From NCBI GenBank assembly GCA_025677835.1, contig JAIXMR010000080.1:60780-124779 (forward strand): DNA of 64,000 bases, read 5' to 3'. Below are positions 1-20,992 of the stretch, in pieces; the first letter of the stretch is position 1, and every line of letters begins with the position of its first letter. Source of the stretch: Sporodiniella umbellata. Its lineage: Eukaryota; Mucoromycota; Mucoromycetes; Mucorales; Rhizopodaceae. Below the pieces are notes generated by a model. That model worked only from the letters and a program-made list of their open reading frames with translations. It searched no databases and was not told the origin of the DNA. Both the position numbers and the translations under genes were made by a program.

Positions 1-629
1 GCAACAGCCGAAGACGTTCAATATGGTACGTTTCTAAGTATACATGTGTATAGAGGGAAAGTTTACTAATTTCAGACAAAAATAGAGGTGGTTGATGATA
101 GAGAAATAGAAATGGAACATGAGTCAGATACGGCAATACAAGAAATTGATATTGATGATAGCGCGGATGAAAGCGAGAGTGACGAGGACTTGGCTGCTGC
201 TATTGATCGCGATTTAGAAGAAATGGAAGACGAAGACGACGATGATGATGACGACGAAGAAGAAGATGGAGACGAATCGGAGGAAGAAGATGAAGAAGAT
301 CCTAGTCAGACAGGAGAAATCGGTAAGGCAGTTTATTTTCCTATAATGATCTCTAAACTTTTTTAAAAGAACAAAAACGACAAGAGATAGCTGAAATCAA
401 ACAAGCCATTCAACGAAAAACTAGAGATTTATTAACAGCCCCCAACGCAATGCTAAAGGTAATATAAAAAAACATATCGCTTTGGTTTTCTGAATAGTAA
501 TTGATACTTTTAATATAGAATCGATTTGAAACCGATATAAACAACTTGAAAAAATCACTAACTCTAAAAGAAGCCCATTTGGCTGAGATGAACGAAAAAG
601 AAAAACAAAACGAAAACTCGCTGCAGTAA
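1..629 (+). CDS. TAF7: TAF7-like TFIID subunit, C-terminal part (5' truncated)
   Basis: Seen: four exon pieces (2..25, 76..322, 370..458, 519..629) join in one frame across three introns with GT donors and AG acceptors; the 5' part lies outside the window. The visible product starts in QQPKTF, runs through a long Asp/Glu-rich stretch (about 60 acidic residues) and ends in a charged helix containing RFETDINNLKK and KEAHLAEM before a stop. Known: TAF7 (TAFII55) subunits of TFIID end in an acidic stretch followed by a coiled-coil helix with an RF(E/Q)..I..L pattern. Inference: this is the tail of TAF7, acting in Pol II pre-initiation complexes. The diagnostic N-terminal domain is not in the window, so the name rests on the C-terminal helix only. 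Confidence 0.6.
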
Positions 630-1372: not shown

Positions 1373-4300
1373 TTATGAAAGTGATAAAGCTGACTCTTTA
1401 ATTTTCTTGAGCCATTTCTTGTCTATGTTCAATGACTGGTACATCGCAGGCGAGATGGTTTCGGCTAAGCCATTTTCCTTAGTCAGGCAAGCTATTGCGT
1501 CAGACTTGATGCGTCTTAGAGCGTTGAATGCCACAACATAAGGAAATTTTGTATACTTCCTTGATGCAACACAGGCCTTGTAAGCACAGCTTGCCTTAAG
1601 AGTTTGCAATAGTTGGCCGTTATTTGTCTGGAGATCGTATTCAATCAACTTGGAACGATATAGGCTTCGTAGGGGTTCTTCCATAAAGTCTTTCGCTGTG
1701 TACTCTTCCAGTTCAAAAAAAGAAGTAAACGAAGCATATAGCTCAAGTACCTCCCCCTCTACATACTTTTGAGGATTATAGACGTTGTCCAACAAATGCT
1801 GTCGTTGTGAATAATATTGTGTGCTTTGTTTGAAAAAGCTTTTAAGAGAAGCTTCTATCGTTTTCTCAATTAAATCCAAATCATGTTCTAAATCTTTATC
1901 ATTGCGTTGAGTAGCGTACTGGTAGGTTTTAAACCAAGGCGAAATCAAATCTGGGTCTTTAACGTGTACATCTTCTTCAGAGAAAAGGCTTTTAGAGTAC
2001 TTTGTAAAGCGTTTGGTTTCTTTTATCAACGTCTTGTAAAGACAATCCATTGTTGTAACGCATGGCGACTTCTCCAATAAAATATATACATCATTAACCT
2101 CTTTGTAAGCACGCCTATGGCTTTCTCGCTGCTTGTTTTTTTTATCCATAAACCATATAGGATGGGGTATATGGCTGTATTTTTCACGATCAAGTACCAC
2201 AATCTCTTGTTTGAGGCGTAAGCCTTGTTTGGCTGCATCTACCAGCCGAGCACACATCTGAGCCAAGTAGGAGACATTTGGATCGTCAACTGAGGTCCTC
2301 TCGGCTTGGACAGTTCTCCAGTTTTCGTACATGCCTAGTGAGCCATCTGGCATTTGCACACTGATGAAACTTTCTTGCAAAGCTTTTTCCGTATTAGCAG
2401 ATACACCAACTAATTGGCCTACAGTGGCTGTATCTTGCTCAAAAGCGTTTTTTACTTGATCCAACTCTGCAATGACTGGGCAGGGCTCAAACGGCTGTAC
2501 TATACTCTGGTCCCAGCAGCAAAAAATCTATTGTCGACATAATATAAGTTTTTTTTCCACAAACAAGAGTCTTACAAGATCACCGTCATAGTCACCACCA
2601 CTAAGTTTGCTCGCCAAAGAAAAATCCCCTTTTACTGGGAATACAATAACGTCTGTATACATTCTCAGTGCAGGGCAATCAATAGCCTTTACTTTTTGAA
2701 TGTCGCTTTTAAGTCCACAGGGATTACGAGTAACAATAACATCGCCAGTGATCAAGCCGGCACTCACACCAGTGATTTCGTCCACACGGCGCGAAGACAG
2801 CTGCAAGAACACTTCGCCGGGTTCTAGAGTATTTGTAGGGTCAGGTATACATGTTATTGTACAGGATTGTGCCACTTCAATTTTGTACTTTGTGGTGATT
2901 GACTTCATAACTTGGCGAAAAATGGCAGTAACACGAGCAGCTATAAACGCATTAGACAAGTCGAATCCGCTGTCAAGTAAACGAATCACAGACTCAAAGA
3001 TACTTCCAGGAAATCCTGAATATTTGTTGACCTGGTCGAATGTTCTAGCAGAATTCAGGGTGTTTGCGTATTCTTGGGGTTCATCTTCATGATCCCCGTC
3101 ATGTCCTTCATTATCTGCGCTAGTCATATCAAACTCCATATCATTTTCTGCAGTCAGGTTCTTCCAAATACCCTTCTCTCCATGCTCTTCATTTTCCCAG
3201 CGCCGGCCCATGACATTGCCGGTTTTAGCTACCCAGTTACGTAGTACCTTAACACTTCGATTTTTGGTCAGCACTGTTGCCATACGACGGATATAGTCAA
3301 TCAAAAGTGCATCAAAAACTTGAGTTGGGACACCTCCTGAAGCTAACACTTGAATAAATTGTGTGTTGAGATTGGAAGGATATATACATAAACTGTTCTT
3401 GACGAGATCAAAAGTATAATGATGCGGGTCGATCCCCATATTGGCTTGGGGTAGTCCTGTCTTGAACTTAAGTTGGCTGGCTCTAATTTGAATGCGTTTC
3501 CCAGAGTTAAAGTCGAGATCAGGAGAGATGATCCAAATACCCTTGGCACCACCAATACGACCTTGAACAGCACATGGTAGCTGATCTGTCGTTTGGCAAC
3601 CCATGATATCTTTCATAGCTGCACAAGAGATGATACCACAGCCGTCGGTCATACAACCAGAAACCTCACGAGCACCAGCTGAATAAATATCGTCAATGTA
3701 TTCTATTTCAGAAGGTTTGAACTGAACAGTTGGAATACTGCTACTGTACCCAAGTGTCATACGGCTGGAATACTTGCTCATCGACATGTCCCAGTTTTCA
3801 AGGATTGGTAAATGCCAGTCGATTACTTGCTGTATTGAGATAGGCTCTAAGTCCACTCCTTCCGTGGCAAAAAACACAAGCGTGGTGTCCTTGATGAACA
3901 AAAATCGAAAGGTACGCTGCATCAATATAATTGGTTTCAGAAAATAATCTTTAAAGTGTCGGGTCATAGAAGGGTTGCTAGAGGTACTGACAGTGAGTTC
4001 AAAGAAGCGATCTTGCCCATATTTGCGAAAAAGGCGATTAGAAGCCGCAATTTTAGGTGCTCGAATTGAGATTCGGGGTGTTATAGAACTTGTTTTATAG
4101 TAGACTATGGCGCCATATCGTACCATACGATTTTTGAGTAGCTTGTGTCGGATATTGTTTTGAATTGGGCGATCGTCTTTGTTTATATTGACATATTTTG
4201 GTGATATAGGAGAAGAGGAAACTAGATCGTTGCTACCCTGAGTAGTAACAGATGGCTTTTCGGATTGAATATAAGACCAGACGCTGTCAGGACACTTACT

Positions 4301-5089
4301 CATGCGAGAGTAACCCATGCCTGTCAGACTCTGGCCCAATCTCTTCTCCATGTTCCAGCGCATCATAACTTCAAATAGCTTTTTCGGGTCTGAGGTAGCT
4401 GTATTTAGGAAGGTGTGGAAGGCATCAAAAGGCACCTCGTTCCATGGCACTTTGCACTGTTGCATAAAACGTCCAATCTCATAGAGAATGATCCAACTAA
4501 TTCCACTAAACAACCTCGTATTTTTTGCAGGGCTACACAATACGTTGAAATCGTCCGATTGCACTCCATCACTAGAGAAAAACATACTAGGTGAAGAAGG
4601 CGGAGTGTCTGGTTTTGTGCTGATGGCGGTAGTTGGCTTTGATTTTTTGTTTACTTTCTTTTCTTCCATTTCTTGAGCGGGCCTTTTCCCGCTCTCTGTT
4701 TTCTCATTGATTTGAACAAATGCATTGTCGTCAATGTCCTCAAATAAATCCTCAACAGTGCTATTTGCAGCTCTATCTGCAACTCAAAGACTGGTGTTAA
4801 AACACATCGTTCGGACTTGGGCACTCTTACTTGTTTGCGATAGCTCTTGATTTATTTGAGCAATAAAGTCACCGATTGTTTTTTTTCGTTGGCGAGGTGG
4901 AGACCAACGAAAAAAGCCTTTTACAGTTTCGTCTAGAACAGATGAGCCTGCGGCAGCTAACAATTCCTTCATTTTCTTAATTTCAGCAAACGCGACATTT
5001 GGTTTTGAAAGCTCAGACACACGCTCTTTTAGTCCCAAATGATAATATACATGTTTGGCACCTCGCAAAATATTTGGATCCAATGACAT
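1373..5089 (-). CDS. RNA-dependent RNA polymerase (RNA silencing, QDE-1/RDR family)
   Basis: Makes double-stranded RNA from single-stranded templates to feed Dicer and amplify small RNAs. Three exons, 5089-4831, 4776-2576 and 2527-1373, join in frame to about 1204 aa, within the range of fungal RdRPs. Seen: MTDGCG near residue 461 and the catalytic DYDGD near residue 815, whose exon ends at DYDGDL and continues across a 48-nt intron into IFCCWDQ, the usual layout after the catalytic loop. The N-terminal 120 residues are charged and poorly conserved. The start at 5089 (MSLDPN) was chosen because the upstream frame is only a Phe-rich translation of a poly-purine tract. Known: Mucor RdRPs act in quelling-type silencing, a non-canonical RNA-decay route and drug-resistance epimutation. 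Which paralogue this is cannot be told from sequence alone. Confidence 0.93.
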
Positions 5090-12286: not shown

Positions 12287-15200
12287 TCACAAACGTTGAA
12301 ATATTAAATAAACAGCGTGCACAATCGGCACGAAATCGTCTATAGTCTCAATGTCAATCACCTCCTCATCTTCTGTCAACTGTTGCTGTTGTCTGTCTTT
12401 CGAATATCCGTCGGGAACAGTGACAACTAGCTCCTTCAATCGGATCTTTTCCCGACCCAGCTTGTTTTCAATGTCTTCTAAAACAAGCATAGTCATTGGC
12501 CAAAGCTTACCATTTGGTTCCCGGATGTCTTGAGTTCCAATAATTAACATTCCTTTAGGTGCCAACCGTTCTGTGGCATCTTGAGCAATATCTACCAACG
12601 ATTGACGATAGGAGTTGATTGATTCAGGCTCTATTCGCTGGTGACCGATAATCATTAAAACCAAATCCGACCCTGGATAGTATGACTTGCTCATCATATT
12701 TTCATAATGGATGACATCGTCTGACTTTTCACTAAGCTCTGATATCAAACCCTAACAAAAAAAAAAGGCTTTTAGCGTATTTTCTCAAGATTTGTAAATC
12801 CAACCAGTTTCAAAAGCATGTTATTGTTTTCTTCGATTCTTTTCAACCTTTCTCTTTCGTACTCTGATATTTCGTTTTCTTCTTCACACTCGCTTTCTAA
12901 AGTTGCTGAACACAGGATTAGTCTTTGAATTCAGCTAGATAGCACGTACTTGTTTTACTAATGGATGGTTCGTTTTGATGCTGAGGAACTAAATCCAACT
13001 CGATATGCTCCCAGTTTCCGTCGTCTTTTCCAAACCTTTCTACCATACGTGATATACATAATTGATCAAAACGAAAAGATTCTGTTGGTTTGAACACCCA
13101 AACAGTGCCCATTACTACGCTTTTTCTCATGATAGCAGACGAGGGTACCGCTCTCATGGTGCGTTTGACAGGTAATGCTGGGCCTTCTTTTATCAACATA
13201 CGGTCAATATTTTCCTTGGGTATCTTTCGGAATGTAGTAATGAATTCATGCGTAAAAACTAAAAAGTCAAATTGAACGCACAAATATGTACCCAGACCAA
13301 AGGCTGAGCAATAACGTTGTCGTTTTATAACCTTTTTTTTTTTTTTTTTTTTTTTTTTTAGGAATTGAACATTACTATATATACATGTATATCAAAAAGA
13401 AAACAAAACCTACAAGCTCCTCCATTTCAAAGCCTTGATCAATATATATTCTAAACATGTGATAACCGACGGGTATATAGAAGCAGTGCTCACGGTTATC
13501 ACCAATTCCCAAAGTTAATCTCCGGCCCATCTTTAACAACCTGCTTGTTAGTATAACACACTGTTCAGTATATTTTTATTTTACCTCCAGCTTTCTTTAA
13601 CTACATTTGTGTACTCCTTATTGAATTCTTCAACAGTAGTAAATCTGTTGTGTATCGCTATTTAAGAGCAATTCTATCTTTATTGAATTTACCTGGATAG
13701 ATCGCCTTCCAAATGAGTTGAGTACGTTACACAGTCTTTATATGGTGGATGCGAAAGAATGTGATGAAACGATTCATCAATGAATAAAGCACCTGTCAGT
13801 TTTCTTGAATCTGCCTGAGCAATAATTGGTCTGTATTCAGCAGACGTTAGACCAGGAGGTACTTCGAAACAACAATTACGTTGCGACAAAGAGATAGCAG
13901 CCTAGATATTAATTAAATGTTTTTAAATGATAAGTTCTTACTGGATTGATATCTACGCCAATGCACCTAGTGTAAGGGCGTAACATAAGTTTAGATCTTT
14001 TTTTTATTCAAGTTTTTGCTTTTTTTTTGATTTTTTTCGTCTATACCTTCTCTGTAACAAAAAACACTCAATAGCGTCGGTCCCTCTTCCCAAAAAATTG
14101 GATAAAACCCTTTCATCTTTACTCGTATGTTTTAGTATGGCGCTGACACTACGCGTAAGTATACATTCTGGAAAAATCGCGTGTTTATATGTATGCATAT
14201 ATACAAACTTACCGACGTACAGTCTGAGGAAGCCACGTTCCTAAAAAAAAATATAGAATGAGTTATTGTTATATTTTCTTTGCTTACCGTGGTAGTCTGT
14301 GCCAGAGTGCGTGGCCCATCGTGGTGCGCGTCCAGGAATATCGAAATAAGTAGATTCAAAACTTAATGAAAAAAGCTGATTTGGCTGTGGTTCATAAGAA
14401 GCTAGCCTTTGTACTACCATATCATTATTGACTTTAGTTGCTGTATCTCTTGTAAAGTAAGGCTTATGCGAATAGTCTTCTATTGAAGTCATATATTGTT
14501 GCTCAGCATTATGAATGACTAGAGGCATATCACTTGATGGTCTCTCATCGTTATCAACCATCAAAGCCAACTCAAAACATGGGTTACACATCATTACACC
14601 TCCATCGTACCCCTTTCGCCAGCTTTCGGCCTCTGTTGTACCACAGTAGCAGCAAGACACCGGTGTAGATCCATCTGGAAGTTTGCGTTTACGCGGGAAT
14701 AAAGACTTCTTTTTCTTTTTAGCATCTAGGAAAAGGGTTATAAGTCGTATTTTTTCTTTGCTGGCTAATCTTACTCGCTTCTCGCGTTTCTGCTTTTTTT
14801 CTAGCTATTTCTCTTGCTTTTTGCGCTTCCATCTCTTTAAGTATTGCCAAAGCTAGTCGTATTACAATAAGTTTAGGTAATAGCTTTTAATTTTTTTTAC
14901 ATGTTTCTTCAAATTCATCTTTGTTGTGTGTATGTGAAGGGAATTGTTCGTAGCACTGTTAAAAAATTAGTGATTAAAGTGTCCTGAAGTTTAGTGTACA
15001 GCTTACCTCAGTACATAGATCGAATGAAGAAAAGTAATCAGAAGTAGAGCATGGTACACATGTAAGCCAAGATTCGCCTTCCATCTTTTTGCCACACCCA
15101 TCACAATTAAACACATTCACGTAGGCATCTAAGTATATTAGCGAACATTCAAGCCGCTCATTTTACCTTTTTTGTTATATTTGGCCTCATGCACCCCACA

Positions 15201-18200
15201 CCAGAATATGACACCACTTTTAAAGTAGCTGACTGGCTTCTTTGAACAAGGTAGATGAAAGCTCTTGGAACATTTCGATTCAAAACAACCGATTGTCGCT
15301 CCTTTTTCTTTACACCCATGACAACGCTAAAAAATTAGCATTGAAAGCAAAAACTATAAATGTTTACCATTCCTCTACCACGCCTTAAGGCTAACGTAAC
15401 ATTATACCATTTTCCTTCAGGTGTACAAAACACTTCAGGCGAATATCTAGCACATGAGTCGTGAGCCCAGAAAGAACGTTTTTTCTCTACACCGTTCTTA
15501 TTGTATGTTGCAATTACAAAAGGCCCGATGAATTGACCCAAATCTTTTGAAGTATCGTCATCATCATTACAAAATGCACACACTTTTCTGCGCTTCCAGC
15601 GTTTGAGAAATTTGTACCCTTGATCACTGTCAATTGGCACTTCTCCTGTAAAGATGCTACTTGCGCTAACCTCTTCCTGTTGTTGCTCTTCTTCTAGTAC
15701 ATCTTCTTCCCAAACAGTGACTAATTCCCCTTTAATAGGCCTTGGTCCGCTTTCAGCGTCAATCACAGCTTGAATAGCAAAACTTGAGCGAGGATGCTCA
15801 TGCCAAAAAGGGAAGTTTTGGTCAAAGCATCTGATATAAATATTAGCCTTTTTTTTTGGAACACAAAGAGCTAAAACCTACCTCAAACAAAGTTCAAAGC
15901 TTCTGTAGTCGTACCCGGATGAAGGGTTTTCACAGTAAGTGCAGTAGTACCGAAACTGTTTAATAACGATGTTGCATTGGTTACAATACACTTTCCAAGA
16001 CTCCATTTCTACAACTAATAAAGACTTAGGTAAACAAGCCACTTACTGATTCAAGGTATATTTACCCTCAATCTCCTCTTCCTCTTCTTCCTTATGATAT
16101 TCGCTCTCATTTGTTTCTTCTTGTTCAACGTCTTCCAGTGTTAAGCGTTTTCTGTTCACCTTTTTGGGTACTGGTGTGTGCTGGCATGTTTCGATATGCC
16201 CTTGTGTTTCGTATCGCTCACGGTAACCCTTTTCAATACATTCCACTTGGTGGTCGTTCTCTATAGGCTGTATACGCCTGCTTCCTACAGTTATCTCCTC
16301 GTCAAAAGAGTCTGGCCAACCGCAGTAGTGAATTTTGACTTTATTTTTATGCATTGATATAAGCCGCCCTTCGTACAGCTTTTTGTCCAAATGAAGTACA
16401 GTAATATGCTGCATATAATCATATCCATATACATTCGCTACAAACTCGTAGTTTTCTGATGCCTTTGCTTGAGCTACCCGAAGTGATATAATTTGCTTTT
16501 CTTCGGTGTTTTTCTCTTCGTTCACAAGTGCATTCTCTTTTTGCTCATACTCTGTAATAGCTACTTTTTTCTTTTTGTATTGTATTAGCTTTTTACATTT
16601 GGTCTCCTCTAATAAGCCTAGCCTCTGGTAATCTTCAGGTCGAACTACATGATGCTTTCGTTTGCGTTTATCTTGAAGTTCTGGGTTGGATTCAATTGCC
16701 AGTAGATTGTCTGTGTTTGAATCAGATAAAAGCCTTATGCGGCGACTTCCAAGCATAATCCACTCATCATAAGCTATATCCCATCCATCATAATGCACTT
16801 TTACTTGACCTTGTCGCATAGCAACCAACCGACCGCATTCCCAAAAATGAGTTTTTCCTGAACGAGTGTTAAGGATTTCAACATTTTGGTTGTACGTGTA
16901 ATTGTACGGGTTTGGTACAAACCCGTTTTCGTCTTGCAGTTGACGCATTGCCCGGCGTGTAGTAAATGCGCCAGTAGTGAGATAAGACGTAGGCTGAGGG
17001 CTTTTAGGTTCTGATGCAATCTTTTTTTTCGACTGTTTAGATTTTTGCTGAGTCAGAACTTCCCTTTCCAGCCCAACAGACTCGTCTTCGGAAACTAGAG
17101 CCTCTTTCTCTTCAACCACAATAGGTTGCTTTATTTTCTTTGGTCTACCTCTTTCTTTTTTGGTATGAGTCTCTTTTTTTCTAGTTTTTTTATCGTCTTT
17201 CTTTTCAACAGTTTTGACTTTTTCAATTGCAGCAACTTTGTCTTCTTTCTCGATGTCTTTGATCTCTTCTGTGTACATTGCTTCTTCTTCCGGTGTCAAT
17301 AGTCTCAATCGCCGGCTACCCATAACAATCCACTCAGTTTGATCTAAGCTTGGGTACCAGACAGATACACTGTTTTTTTTCATTTCTCGTAGATATCCTA
17401 TGCACTCTCGGTCTTTTGCATTAAAAGTCACTGCTACTGGTCGATTACGTCGATATCCATATGAATTAGGACAAAAACCGTACTGGTCAACCATGGCACG
17501 GGCCATACGACGAGTCATAAACACCTCACTATCATTGAATAGCTGCTGTGGGTCTTTGTCTAGTGTGGAGCTTACATAATCGTCTTTTTTGTTAGGTTTT
17601 ACGCGAGGAATAAGTATTGGCATCTTTTGCTGTTTTTCTTCTAAATGTCAAACGGTAAATAAAAACCAAAAATCTCTAAATCAAATACTGAGTGTACCGC
17701 TTTTCTCTTGGGCAACTATTTCGCTTGAAACAATACGTAGTCTTCGACTTCCCATTATGACCCATTCTTCTTGATGATCGTTATATTTTACCAAAACTTT
17801 ACCCTTTTGCATCTTTTCCAAACGACCCCGACAATATATGCCGCTGATGTTAAGTACCTCAACCACCTGTTGATAAACATGTCCTTGGCTATTTGGATAA
17901 AATCCTTGAGGGTCTGCTAGCCTTTCCGCTGTTTTTCGAGTCATAAATGCACCAGTTGAAACAAAGGGGATGTCTTTTTTGGCTTTTTTCCTTGGGTGTA
18001 TTTGTAGTTTTTTTGTCATGTCTTCTATAAGACTTCCCCACTGATTTGCACAAGCCGAGCAAGCGCCTATAGCTTCCAAAGGCGATCTATTTTCTGTTCT
18101 TTCAATGCATCTATTACACTCTATCATGCCCAACTCAATCCAAGGCCCTAGTACGTCGTCGTCCGATTGAAGTGAGCCAAGCGAAGATGTATCATCGGAT

Positions 18201-18476
18201 TTGTTCTCAACGTCCCATCGAGTCTTTCGACCATTCAATAGACGATAGTTCTTTTGAACCATAGATTCTAACGTGTTAGGATTTGTATCCTATACAAACT
18301 GGTTTAACTGATAGATCAACTCTTAGTTTTTTATATATGTGTTTTGTTTTTATGCTAACTTGATCATTTCCAGGTGAAGGCTCTGACAATATAAAGCTTC
18401 AGTATTAAACTATATTCAAAAGACAAATACCTTGATTTGAATTAAATGCTGTCCAAGAAAAAGGTTCTTCTGACAT
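12287..18476 (-). CDS. Tudor-like/ZZ/ePHD/GATA-like protein fused to an N4/N6-type DNA methylase domain
   Basis: Nineteen exons (18476-18431, 18267-17698, 17640-16066, 16008-15882, 15830-15368, 15326-15167, 15128-15007, 14955-14901, 14852-14775, 14725-14288, 14240-14213, 14148-14047, 13966-13942, 13901-13693, 13644-13585, 13540-13414, 13331-12950, 12905-12805, 12751-12287) join without a frame break into 1710 aa. Order seen: four Tudor-like barrels (about residues 118-198, 244-320, 427-511, 586-665), each ending in W(I/V)(M)xGSRR(L/I)R or a variant; ZZ finger (731-790); extended PHD (857-980); second ZZ (990-1038); GATA-like CX2C-X18-CX2C (1090-1115); methylase with SAM motif FLGRGTDAIE (1239-1248), GVDINP, and SHPPY (1313-1317) in the DPPY/SPPY position, then a GIGDNRE strand; and a second methylase-like lobe (1557-1710) without these motifs. 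Expected role: reading histone or DNA state and methylating DNA, base unknown (N4-C or N6-A). The fusion is directly supported by phase; the activity is inferred. Confidence 0.85.
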
Positions 18477-19356: not shown

Positions 19357-20992
19357 ATGACTTCTGAAACAACTACAGTCGATAAGAAAAAAAAGACAAC
19401 AACAGAAATACCTGCATTTTACACACAGGCTTTTAAAAACTACCCGGTTCAACTCAAACAGACTAAAGCAAAAGGGCGACATGCTGTAGCTTCTGAAGCT
19501 CTATCAGAAGGCATTACAGTTAGCATGGAAACTGCAGCTGCTTTTGTCGTTCGATCTGAATTTTTGGATCAACACTGTCATTCTTGTCTGACAGATTTGG
19601 ACGACTCCAAAAAAGGTTGTGAATGTGGTACAGCCTTTTATTGCTCCAACAATTGCTTAAAAAAGGACACCTTACACGACACGGTTTGTAGTGCTATGAA
19701 GCAAGTAAAAGCAATAGCAAATTCAACAGACGTGGATGTAGACTTGTTGCGCTTAATGCTCTTGTTACTGAGCAGACGATCATTGGGTGATCAAACTTCT
19801 GCTCCGTTTTGGTGTGTTGAGGACCTATTGAGTCATGTAGAAGAAGCGTCCAGCGATTTTAAACAAGCCGTAGGTTCTGCATGTAAGTCAACGCAATAAG
19901 AAAAGAAAATCAGGATCTCTTTAGATAACAGATATGTTTACTGAATATTTTTTTTATATAGCAGAAAGAATTTTAAGCGAGCTACCAGAATCGCTTCAAA
20001 TTCCAAAGTGCGACATGATAGCACTAGCTTGCAGAATTAACAATAACGCGCATGGACTAGGCGATCAACACGGACGAAATACAGATATTGCTTTTGGCTT
20101 GTTTCCTTTAGGTGCTCTTTTCTTTAATCATAGTTGCAATCCGAACACAGCTTTTGTTGGGCTTCCCAACGGTCAATTAGCATTCAGAACTATTCGGCCT
20201 GTCAAAAAGGATGAGGAGCTGGTTGTGAGCTACATTGATGTATATTCATGCCGGGACGAGCGTCGCCAAGAGCTTCTAACTACAAAGCACTTTTGGTGTA
20301 AATGTAAACGGTGTACTGAGACTATGGAAAAATCCGTCGATCGTTTTCTTCAGGGCGTGGTTTGTCACAAATGCGAAAAAGATGTTTATCTAGTGCCAGC
20401 CACAAATATAGACCACCTGATTAGAGGAAAAACCAGTGTGATACTTGAGAAATCTTTCAAGTGTGCCTCTTGTGGATATGAAATCAATCAGGAAGAATTA
20501 AAAACTGCCTTGGAAGCAATCAATGAAACATATGCCAAGGGTATAACTCATATTCAGCAACACGGCGACTATGCTAAGGCAAGACAGCAGCTAGAAAAAG
20601 CGGCAAAGCAGCCCGAAAAAGGTGGAAATGCTTGTTCGATACACTCTGTGCGCTTCAACTCACTTATTCCTTTGATGAATTGTTTACGCCATGGCGGCGA
20701 TTTGAAAAATGCAATTCAAGTGAACAAGTCCATCTTATTTTTAATCGAGCAGTATGCTGATATCGGTGGTCTCCCAAAAAACACACAAGAGTATTCAGAT
20801 TTCGCTCAAAATTTGGGCGAACTTTGCGAAAAAGTAGCAAACCAGAGCGGAAATTCTATACTAAAAAAGAAATGGATGAAAGAAGCGCATAAGGCTTACT
20901 CACAGGCACTGGCTTCCCGGTCTGTGACTTTTGGAAAAGCACATCACAAAACGCTGATTATCGAACAAGCACTGAGGAAAGTAAAAATTTGA
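19357..20992 (+). CDS. SMYD-type SET and MYND domain protein
   Basis: Probable protein-lysine methyltransferase. Two exons (19357..19882, 19962..20992) give 518 aa. Seen: an N-terminal SET half (KAKGRHAVASEAL), an inserted MYND zinc finger at about residues 76-114 (CHSCL...CECGTAFYCSNNCLKKDTLHDTVC), the SET core with NNNAHGL, FPLGALFFNHSCNPNTAF and the VSYID strand (about 190-280), a post-SET Cys cluster (FWCKCKRC), and a C-terminal helical region. NHSC and the downstream Tyr are the SAM- and lysine-channel residues of active SET domains, so the enzyme looks intact. The start at 19357 was preferred over an upstream in-frame ATG (19237) that would add a hydrophobic Phe-rich leader. It may be cytosolic or nuclear. 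It is divergent from the chromatin-reader methylase. Confidence 0.88.

Follow-up and report, generated by a model that had tools for sequence, protein, structure and literature searches.

A chromatin-reader protein of early-diverging fungi with an HPPY-type amino-methylase of probable restriction-modification origin

Introduction

Why would a fungus carry a row of chromatin-reader modules on a bacterial-looking DNA methylase, and what mark might such a protein write? The question is raised by a gene of Sporodiniella umbellata (genome of 25.9 Mb in 198 contigs), which lies in a 64,000-nt stretch of contig JAIXMR010000080.1 (contig C178). This whole stretch is called the window, and positions refer to it. 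The gene encodes Tudor-like repeats, ZZ-type fingers, an extended PHD (ePHD) finger, a GATA-like finger and an amino-methylase with the site HPPY. With modest confidence, we favor the reading that the methylase is a domesticated enzyme of a DpnII-type restriction-modification (R-M) system, acquired once early in fungi, fused to the reader-like modules and most likely producing N6-methyladenine (6mA or m6A). The evidence computed here comprises the gene, its domain order, the fold of an orthologue, the conservation of the motifs, the restriction-system relatives and the single group of eukaryotic sequences.

Gene model

Splicing, the deposited protein and a Rhizopus delemar homologue agree on one minus-strand gene with a single 1725-residue (aa) frame whose sole stop is terminal. 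The initial annotation had its coordinates, strand and frame right, while its nineteen exons are in fact the number of introns: the coding sequence of 5178 nt is spread over 20 exons (Table 1), and all 19 introns, of 38-82 nt, are GT-AG. The deposited product, S. umbellata BY458DRAFT_520176 (P0094, 1693 aa), is identical at all 648 residues queried. It begins at Met33 of our model, the first two exons (18476-18360) being omitted, but R. delemar P0096 can be aligned with our model from its first residue (79.5% identity over 1-1725), so the originally proposed start at 18476 is the better one. The exon 12/13 junction was taken from the splice in P0094, which was judged better; the Pfam scan and the homologue protein searches used an earlier 1727-aa model with one less good acceptor. 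Intron 17 has an odd 3' splice site (13332-13358), with a run of A before the AG and no pyrimidine tract, which was accepted all the same because the frame and the deposited protein agree with it. A chance concatenation of exons was ruled out, since homologues keep the module order. A PF01555 search of the S. umbellata genome returned nothing at E<=0.001, which is not evidence of absence because introns split the gene.

A methylase with an HPPY site and a degenerate companion

The initial annotation placed the enzyme among amino-methylases of the N4/N6 kind, outside the MT-A70 family. This holds: PF01555 scores above its cut-off, and MT-A70 (PF05063) has no match in the protein at E<=1. Motif I (aa 1254) precedes motif IV (aa 1329). 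The PADLOC Type II methyltransferase model PDLC03376, the family associated with DpnII in Type II R-M systems, matches P0094 over the whole domain (profile 1-249 of 249, E 2e-36); 4/4 fungal proteins scanned with it gave matches (E 2e-36 to 4e-21).

Motif IV of such enzymes is usually (D/N/S)PP(Y/F/W). The letters SHPPY that were first pointed out are exact at aa 1328-1332, but the tetrapeptide of the active site reads HPPY rather than SPPY. An N4-cytosine reading from SPPY was therefore rejected: the residue before PPY is His, and the Ser, lying before the tetrapeptide, gives no such inference. HPPY is invariant in 15/15 aligned prokaryotic relatives and in 34/34 aligned tandem rows (sequences with a second, degenerate methylase part), and the TSPPY of the solved Thermus methylase 2zie aligns with the tHPPY of the family. 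Motif IV variants of PF01555-type enzymes are listed in the available text of PMC8885841. In the fungi, statements on homologues refer to 120 listed of 160 found, the S. umbellata protein included and some being partial or overlapping models. FLGRGTD and SHPPY are both exact in 112 of these; P0204 and P0213 miss the stretch with SHPPY, perhaps through gene-model errors.

A Rossmann methylase fold, as initially annotated, is supported by the AlphaFold 2 (AF2) model of the Phycomyces orthologue, with pLDDT mostly >80 across the catalytic domain. The domain inventory first drawn up was confirmed for the modules that it listed but lacked a C-terminal second methylase half without motifs I and IV. 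By hhalign, 27 fungal C-termini match the single-domain family with E 2.5e-6 and probability 89 over 117 columns, and the same part matches the family profile at 6-42 bits in 13/14 prokaryotic tandem rows. The THUMP domain is defining for the tRNA m2G10 methylase Trm11; none is among the Pfam matches of the S. umbellata protein at E<=1.

Spread in fungi

All six C-terminal modules occur in 108/120 listed homologues by iterated search, in identical order in all 108; a plain single-sequence search, without iteration, finds all six in 96. The methylase and the degenerate module are each present in 120/120, the ePHD in 119, the GATA-like finger in 118, and a ZZ finger before and after the ePHD in 117 and 111, respectively. 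Named homologues come from hosts in Mucorales, Umbelopsis, Mortierellomycota, Glomeromycotina, Geosiphon, Calcarisporiella and Jimgerdemannia, and from Basidiobolus, Neoconidiobolus, Massospora, Coemansia and kin, Dimargaris and Dispira; the higher taxa are those to which we take the hosts to belong. The phyletic survey called for at the outset thus shows the family to be widespread in early-diverging fungi. Shorter gene models come from Smittium, from three chytrids (Geranomyces, Borealophlyctis, Rhizophlyctis) and from the rozellid Paramicrosporidium. The 798-aa Paramicrosporidium protein has ZZ, ePHD, ZZ and methylase, and the search did not find the C-terminal module in it. The chytrid models P0253 and P0264 are without the reader part, through annotation or in reality.

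Named matches in the protein searches came from early-diverging fungi and prokaryotes, besides metagenome rows; those labeled eukaryotic (P0005-P0007, P0009, P0013, P0256, P0257 and others) were so labeled from sequence features. No named match from Dikarya is among the matches listed, which does not prove absence there because 120 of 160 were listed and a second search scored only 8000 candidates.

Of 60 rows selected, 59 entered the unrooted tree; Rhizophlyctis P0271 was too short and was left out. All eukaryotic rows fall into a single group (100/100) with subgroups that track fungal taxonomy, which makes one acquisition followed by vertical descent in fungi the simplest reading of these sequences. 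Row P0031, of the single-domain type, is placed among the tandem rows.

Prokaryotic relatives and restriction systems

The prokaryotic HPPY Type II methylases (PDLC03376, PF01555) share with the fungal enzyme the entire catalytic domain (identity roughly 34-44%), the motif order, HPPY and a WATHSG..Y.G.W.P start; tandem forms (466-592 aa) have the C-terminal half-module as well. Unlike the fungal protein, they lack chromatin modules, and many have an N-terminus that reads as Zn-finger- or helix-turn-helix-like. NCBI names them 'TRM11 family SAM-dependent methyltransferase' or 'DNA methyltransferase'.

Single-domain loci were taken from a scan of genome contigs as the best 80 of 583 confirmed, leaning to Clostridia. 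Among these 80, a Dam-like gene is present in 75 and a DpnII-type nuclease in 65, and the nuclease lies <=400 bp upstream of the methylase in 59; one or both partner genes are missing in 15, some on short contigs. On representatives, Pfam confirmed PF02086 (Dam) and PF04556 (DpnII). In one locus (L022) the methylase open reading frame (ORF) was missed by the ORF caller.

The tandem type was found in 4/395, 0/398 and 3/198 genomes searched. A DpnII-family match was found in three of these seven genomes, in each the only one detected: it lies 48 bp upstream in G042, is the next gene in G816, and is next but one, after a short gene, in G078. In G042 the contig with the methylase measures 2.54 Mb, against a stated genome size of 2.5 Mb, and no Dam-family match was found in this genome at E<=0.001. 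With the nuclease 48 bp upstream, this makes the tandem enzyme of G042 a candidate protector against a DpnII-type nuclease. In S. umbellata, no nuclease domain was found in the protein or in four flanking ORFs, a result that does not extend to a PF04556 search of the genome, which was not made.

A 400-460-aa protein recurs beside prokaryotic HPPY methylases (L113:6049-7428, L089:7059-8267 and L042:4801-6138), the likeness of the first two to the third being judged by eye. It matched no significant Pfam or PADLOC family, and is perhaps an unrecognized partner where the DpnII nuclease is absent.

Which base

We agree with the initial annotation that the target base is not decidable from sequence; the predicted product is most likely 6mA. 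The DpnII-linked relatives and the methylome of Clostridium thermocellum tilt the prediction this way. In strain ATCC 27405, single-molecule real-time (SMRT) and bisulfite sequencing gave m6A at GATC and two other m6A motifs, two 5-methylcytosine (m5C) motifs and no N4-methylcytosine (4mC or m4C) motif, as given in the available text of PMC6791906. The same text has Cthe_2470 and Cthe_1511 annotated as Dam, with Cthe_1511 predicted to share an operon with an MboI-type nuclease and the system listed as Cthe_1511-1513. The species has a named relative of the HPPY enzymes, P0029.

Comparison with known systems

The kind of protein, an acquired prokaryotic DNA methylase with a chromatin reader, is already known from rotifers. 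Bdelloid N4CMT is likewise an acquired bacterial PF01555 amino-methylase joined to a histone reader, but is permuted, has SPPY and a single chromodomain, and was active for 4mC in E. coli; its authors describe an enzyme without eukaryotic homologues (PMC8885841, available text). The fungal protein has neither the permuted order nor SPPY. A Marchantia 4mC methylase is named in the available text of PMC12344493.

Among fungal enzymes, MetB is also an acquired prokaryotic methylase kept across early-diverging fungi, but it is a PF02384 protein likened to Type IIL MmeI, is needed for asymmetric 6mA, and its description in the available text has no reader modules (PMC11258239). The MTA1 complex (MT-A70, PF05063) resembles the fungal HPPY protein in combining an active and an inactive methylase in early-diverging fungi; it differs in family and in having separate subunits, whereas the HPPY protein carries the pair in one chain. 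The DpnII operon of Streptococcus pneumoniae (DpnM/DpnA) likewise has a second methylase gene. DpnA is a permuted DPPY enzyme, unlike the fungal protein, and the Marchantia enzyme shares with the latter that a eukaryote acquired it as a bacterial amino-methylase.

Lax et al. tested metA (PF05175), metB (PF02384), metC and mta1 (MT-A70) in Mucor; PF01555 is not mentioned in the main text of their paper (PMC11258239). A June 2026 review names the MTA1 complex and MetB as fungal 6mA writers (PMC13297926). Within their available text, PF01555 and N6_N4 go unmentioned in PMC8298701, PMC7862722 and PMC13297926, the last also without 4mC, and N6_N4 in PMC12695648. In the open-license literature searched, the HPPY family, its site, the active/degenerate pair in one chain and its depth in fungi are undescribed.

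Origin and function

The following course would fit these results. A prokaryotic donor may have passed to an early fungus, once, a tandem unit of an active HPPY methylase and a degenerate half, from a Type II, DpnII-type and presumably GATC R-M system. This unit would then have been fused to ZZ-ePHD-ZZ-GATA and Tudor/MBT-like modules. The ePHD, ZZ and Tudor/MBT modules may dock on modified nucleosomes and the GATA-like finger and pseudo-methylase may help hold DNA, while the active half would methylate an exocyclic amino group, most likely adenine N6, at local sites, with S-adenosylmethionine (SAM) as donor. Catalysis in the fungi, the adenine target and a GATC-like site are all predictions, as are the direction and number of transfers, the reading of a histone mark and a role for the pseudo-domain. 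Writing according to histone or DNA state, as proposed in the initial annotation, likewise remains an inference. We hold it possible, at somewhat short of an even chance, that the protein is an ancestral and so far overlooked fungal writer, a single-chain active/inactive methylase pair taken over from a DpnII restriction system before the rozellid/chytrid/zygomycete split, which places 6mA or 4mC according to the histone state that its Tudor, ZZ and ePHD modules find, and was lost in Dikarya.

Several points weigh against a restriction-derived adenine methylase. Motif IV has His where D, N or S is usual, and the nearest solved folds in the fold comparison are tRNA m2G10 enzymes. The branch between eukaryotes and prokaryotes is long (2.55) and has no settled attachment in a tree without a root. 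Four of the seven tandem genomes gave no DpnII match, so some copies occur without that nuclease, and G042 may hold protecting methylases other than Dam, for which no search was made. The gene of P0029 would be Cthe_1513, the third of its operon, and the two Dam-annotated genes alone may explain all GATC m6A of C. thermocellum. In the mta1 and p1 mutants of Mucor lusitanicus, symmetric 6mA sites were not detected (PMC11258239, available text), which argues against abundant symmetric G6mATC made by the M. lusitanicus copy (P0125, with FLGRGTD and SHPPY kept) in the growth tested.

The last result would fit a protein that makes 4mC in the manner of bdelloid N4CMT; PF01555 covers both activities, and the rotifer enzyme is an acquired SPPY methylase with a chromodomain (PMC8885841, available text). 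We nevertheless think this product unlikely, since the motif is HPPY and not SPPY, motif I comes first in the fungal protein whereas N4CMT is permuted, the relatives among the best 80 of 583 loci occur together with DpnII nucleases and Dam, and no m4C motif was found for C. thermocellum (PMC6791906, available text). The tRNA-enzyme folds might instead indicate an RNA amino-group methylase, Trm11-like, tethered to chromatin. This seems improbable given the lack of THUMP among the Pfam matches and the restriction-system neighborhoods of the relatives. By reasoning, order-keeping alignments should disfavor permuted DNA methylases, and the top rows listed from the fold comparisons contain none; M.TaqI, which methylates adenine in DNA, appears too, at rank 24.

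A catalytically dead chromatin adaptor, its methylase fold serving as a DNA or protein contact, would account for the odd motif IV, and pseudo-methylases such as MTA9 and METTL14 are common partners. The Mucor 6mA described in the available text of PMC11258239 is moreover ascribed there to MetB and to the MTA1 complex. Such an adaptor is improbable, however, with the SAM and HPPY motifs exact in so many listed homologues and HPPY invariant in the aligned prokaryotic relatives, many of them kept beside a nuclease.

If the favored origin as a domesticated R-M methylase is true, this would exemplify a rare conversion of a restriction-type methylase into a chromatin protein, retained through much of a kingdom and equipped with an unusual HPPY site. 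It would be a third, reader-fused candidate among 6mA writers and, since the genetic model M. lusitanicus has a copy, would open the placement of DNA marks relative to histone marks in early-diverging fungi to direct testing.

Reader-like modules

The four Tudor-like, two ZZ, ePHD and GATA-like modules of the initial annotation are all present by Pfam, repeat comparison, Cys/His pattern and conservation (Table 1). In single comparisons, the four Tudor-like repeats match each other with E 1e-6 to 8e-21. Matches to solved structures include L3MBTL3, L3MBTL1 and PHF20L1 for repeat 3, and KMT2D, PHF6 and BRPF1 for the ePHD, whose Pfam scores are 32.7 bits for PF13771 (cut-off 29.1) and 29.1 for PF13832 (cut-off 27). 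Pfam ZZ has no match in the S. umbellata protein at E<=1; the two ZZ fingers are therefore called from their Cys/His pattern, from conservation and from a PF00569 match (E=0.008) in the Paramicrosporidium relative P0269.

Table 1. Features of the methylase gene in the window, with residues of the 1725-aa model
Feature	Residues	Position	Strand	Evidence
Whole gene		12287..18476	-	splicing; deposited protein P0094; Rhizopus delemar P0096
Exons 1-5		18476-18431, 18382-18360, 18289-17698, 17640-16066, 16014-15882	-	
Exons 6-10		15830-15368, 15326-15167, 15128-15007, 14955-14901, 14852-14775	-	
Exons 11-15		14725-14288, 14240-14213, 14142-14047, 13966-13942, 13901-13693	-	
Exons 16-20		13644-13585, 13540-13414, 13331-12950, 12905-12805, 12751-12287	-	
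Tudor/MBT-like repeat 1	129-210	17729..17974	-	repeat-to-repeat BLASTP, E 1e-9 to 8e-21
Tudor-like repeat 2	253-335	17297..17545	-	Tudor_4 21.4 bits, under cut-off 25.8; repeat similarity
Tudor/MBT-like repeat 3, HYDGWDIAYDEWI	438-525	16727..16990	-	MBT PF02820 24.9 bits, cut-off 22
Tudor-like repeat 4	601-682	16256..16501	-	repeat similarity, E 1e-6 to 8e-17
ZZ-type finger 1, across intron 5	752-810	15770..15997	-	CxxC/CxxC/CxxC/HxH pattern
Extended PHD finger, across intron 6	870-992	15183..15592	-	PF13771 and PF13832 over cut-off
ZZ-type finger 2, across intron 8	1001-1055	14905..15120	-	Cys/His pattern
GATA-like finger	1103-1136	14565..14666	-	PF00320 18.9 bits, under cut-off 26.8
Catalytic amino-methyltransferase domain	1205-1446	13224..14360	-	PF01555 34.3 bits, cut-off 26.7
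Motif I, FLGRGTD	1254-1260	14076..14096	-	exact in 114/120 listed homologues
Motif IV, SHPPY, catalytic tetrapeptide HPPY	1328-1332	13740..13754	-	exact in 118/120 listed homologues
C-terminal degenerate second methylase module, without motifs I and IV	1477-1725	12290..13133	-	hhalign

Neighboring genes and other methylases

Beside the methylase gene and divergent from it lies a putative SMYD-like lysine methyltransferase gene (19360-20992, plus strand), called from two ORFs with a SET domain (PF00856, 35.7 bits) and a MYND-like match (PF01753) below cut-off. The gene at 2528-4783 on the minus strand, at a distance of about 7.5 kb from that of the methylase, encodes an RNA-dependent RNA polymerase (PF05183, E 6e-103), a component of RNA silencing. 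On the same contig, outside the window, MT-A70 family matches occur at G000:C178:9836-10434, and elsewhere the S. umbellata genome has MT-A70, N6_Mtase and 5-methylcytosine (5mC)-methylase matches.
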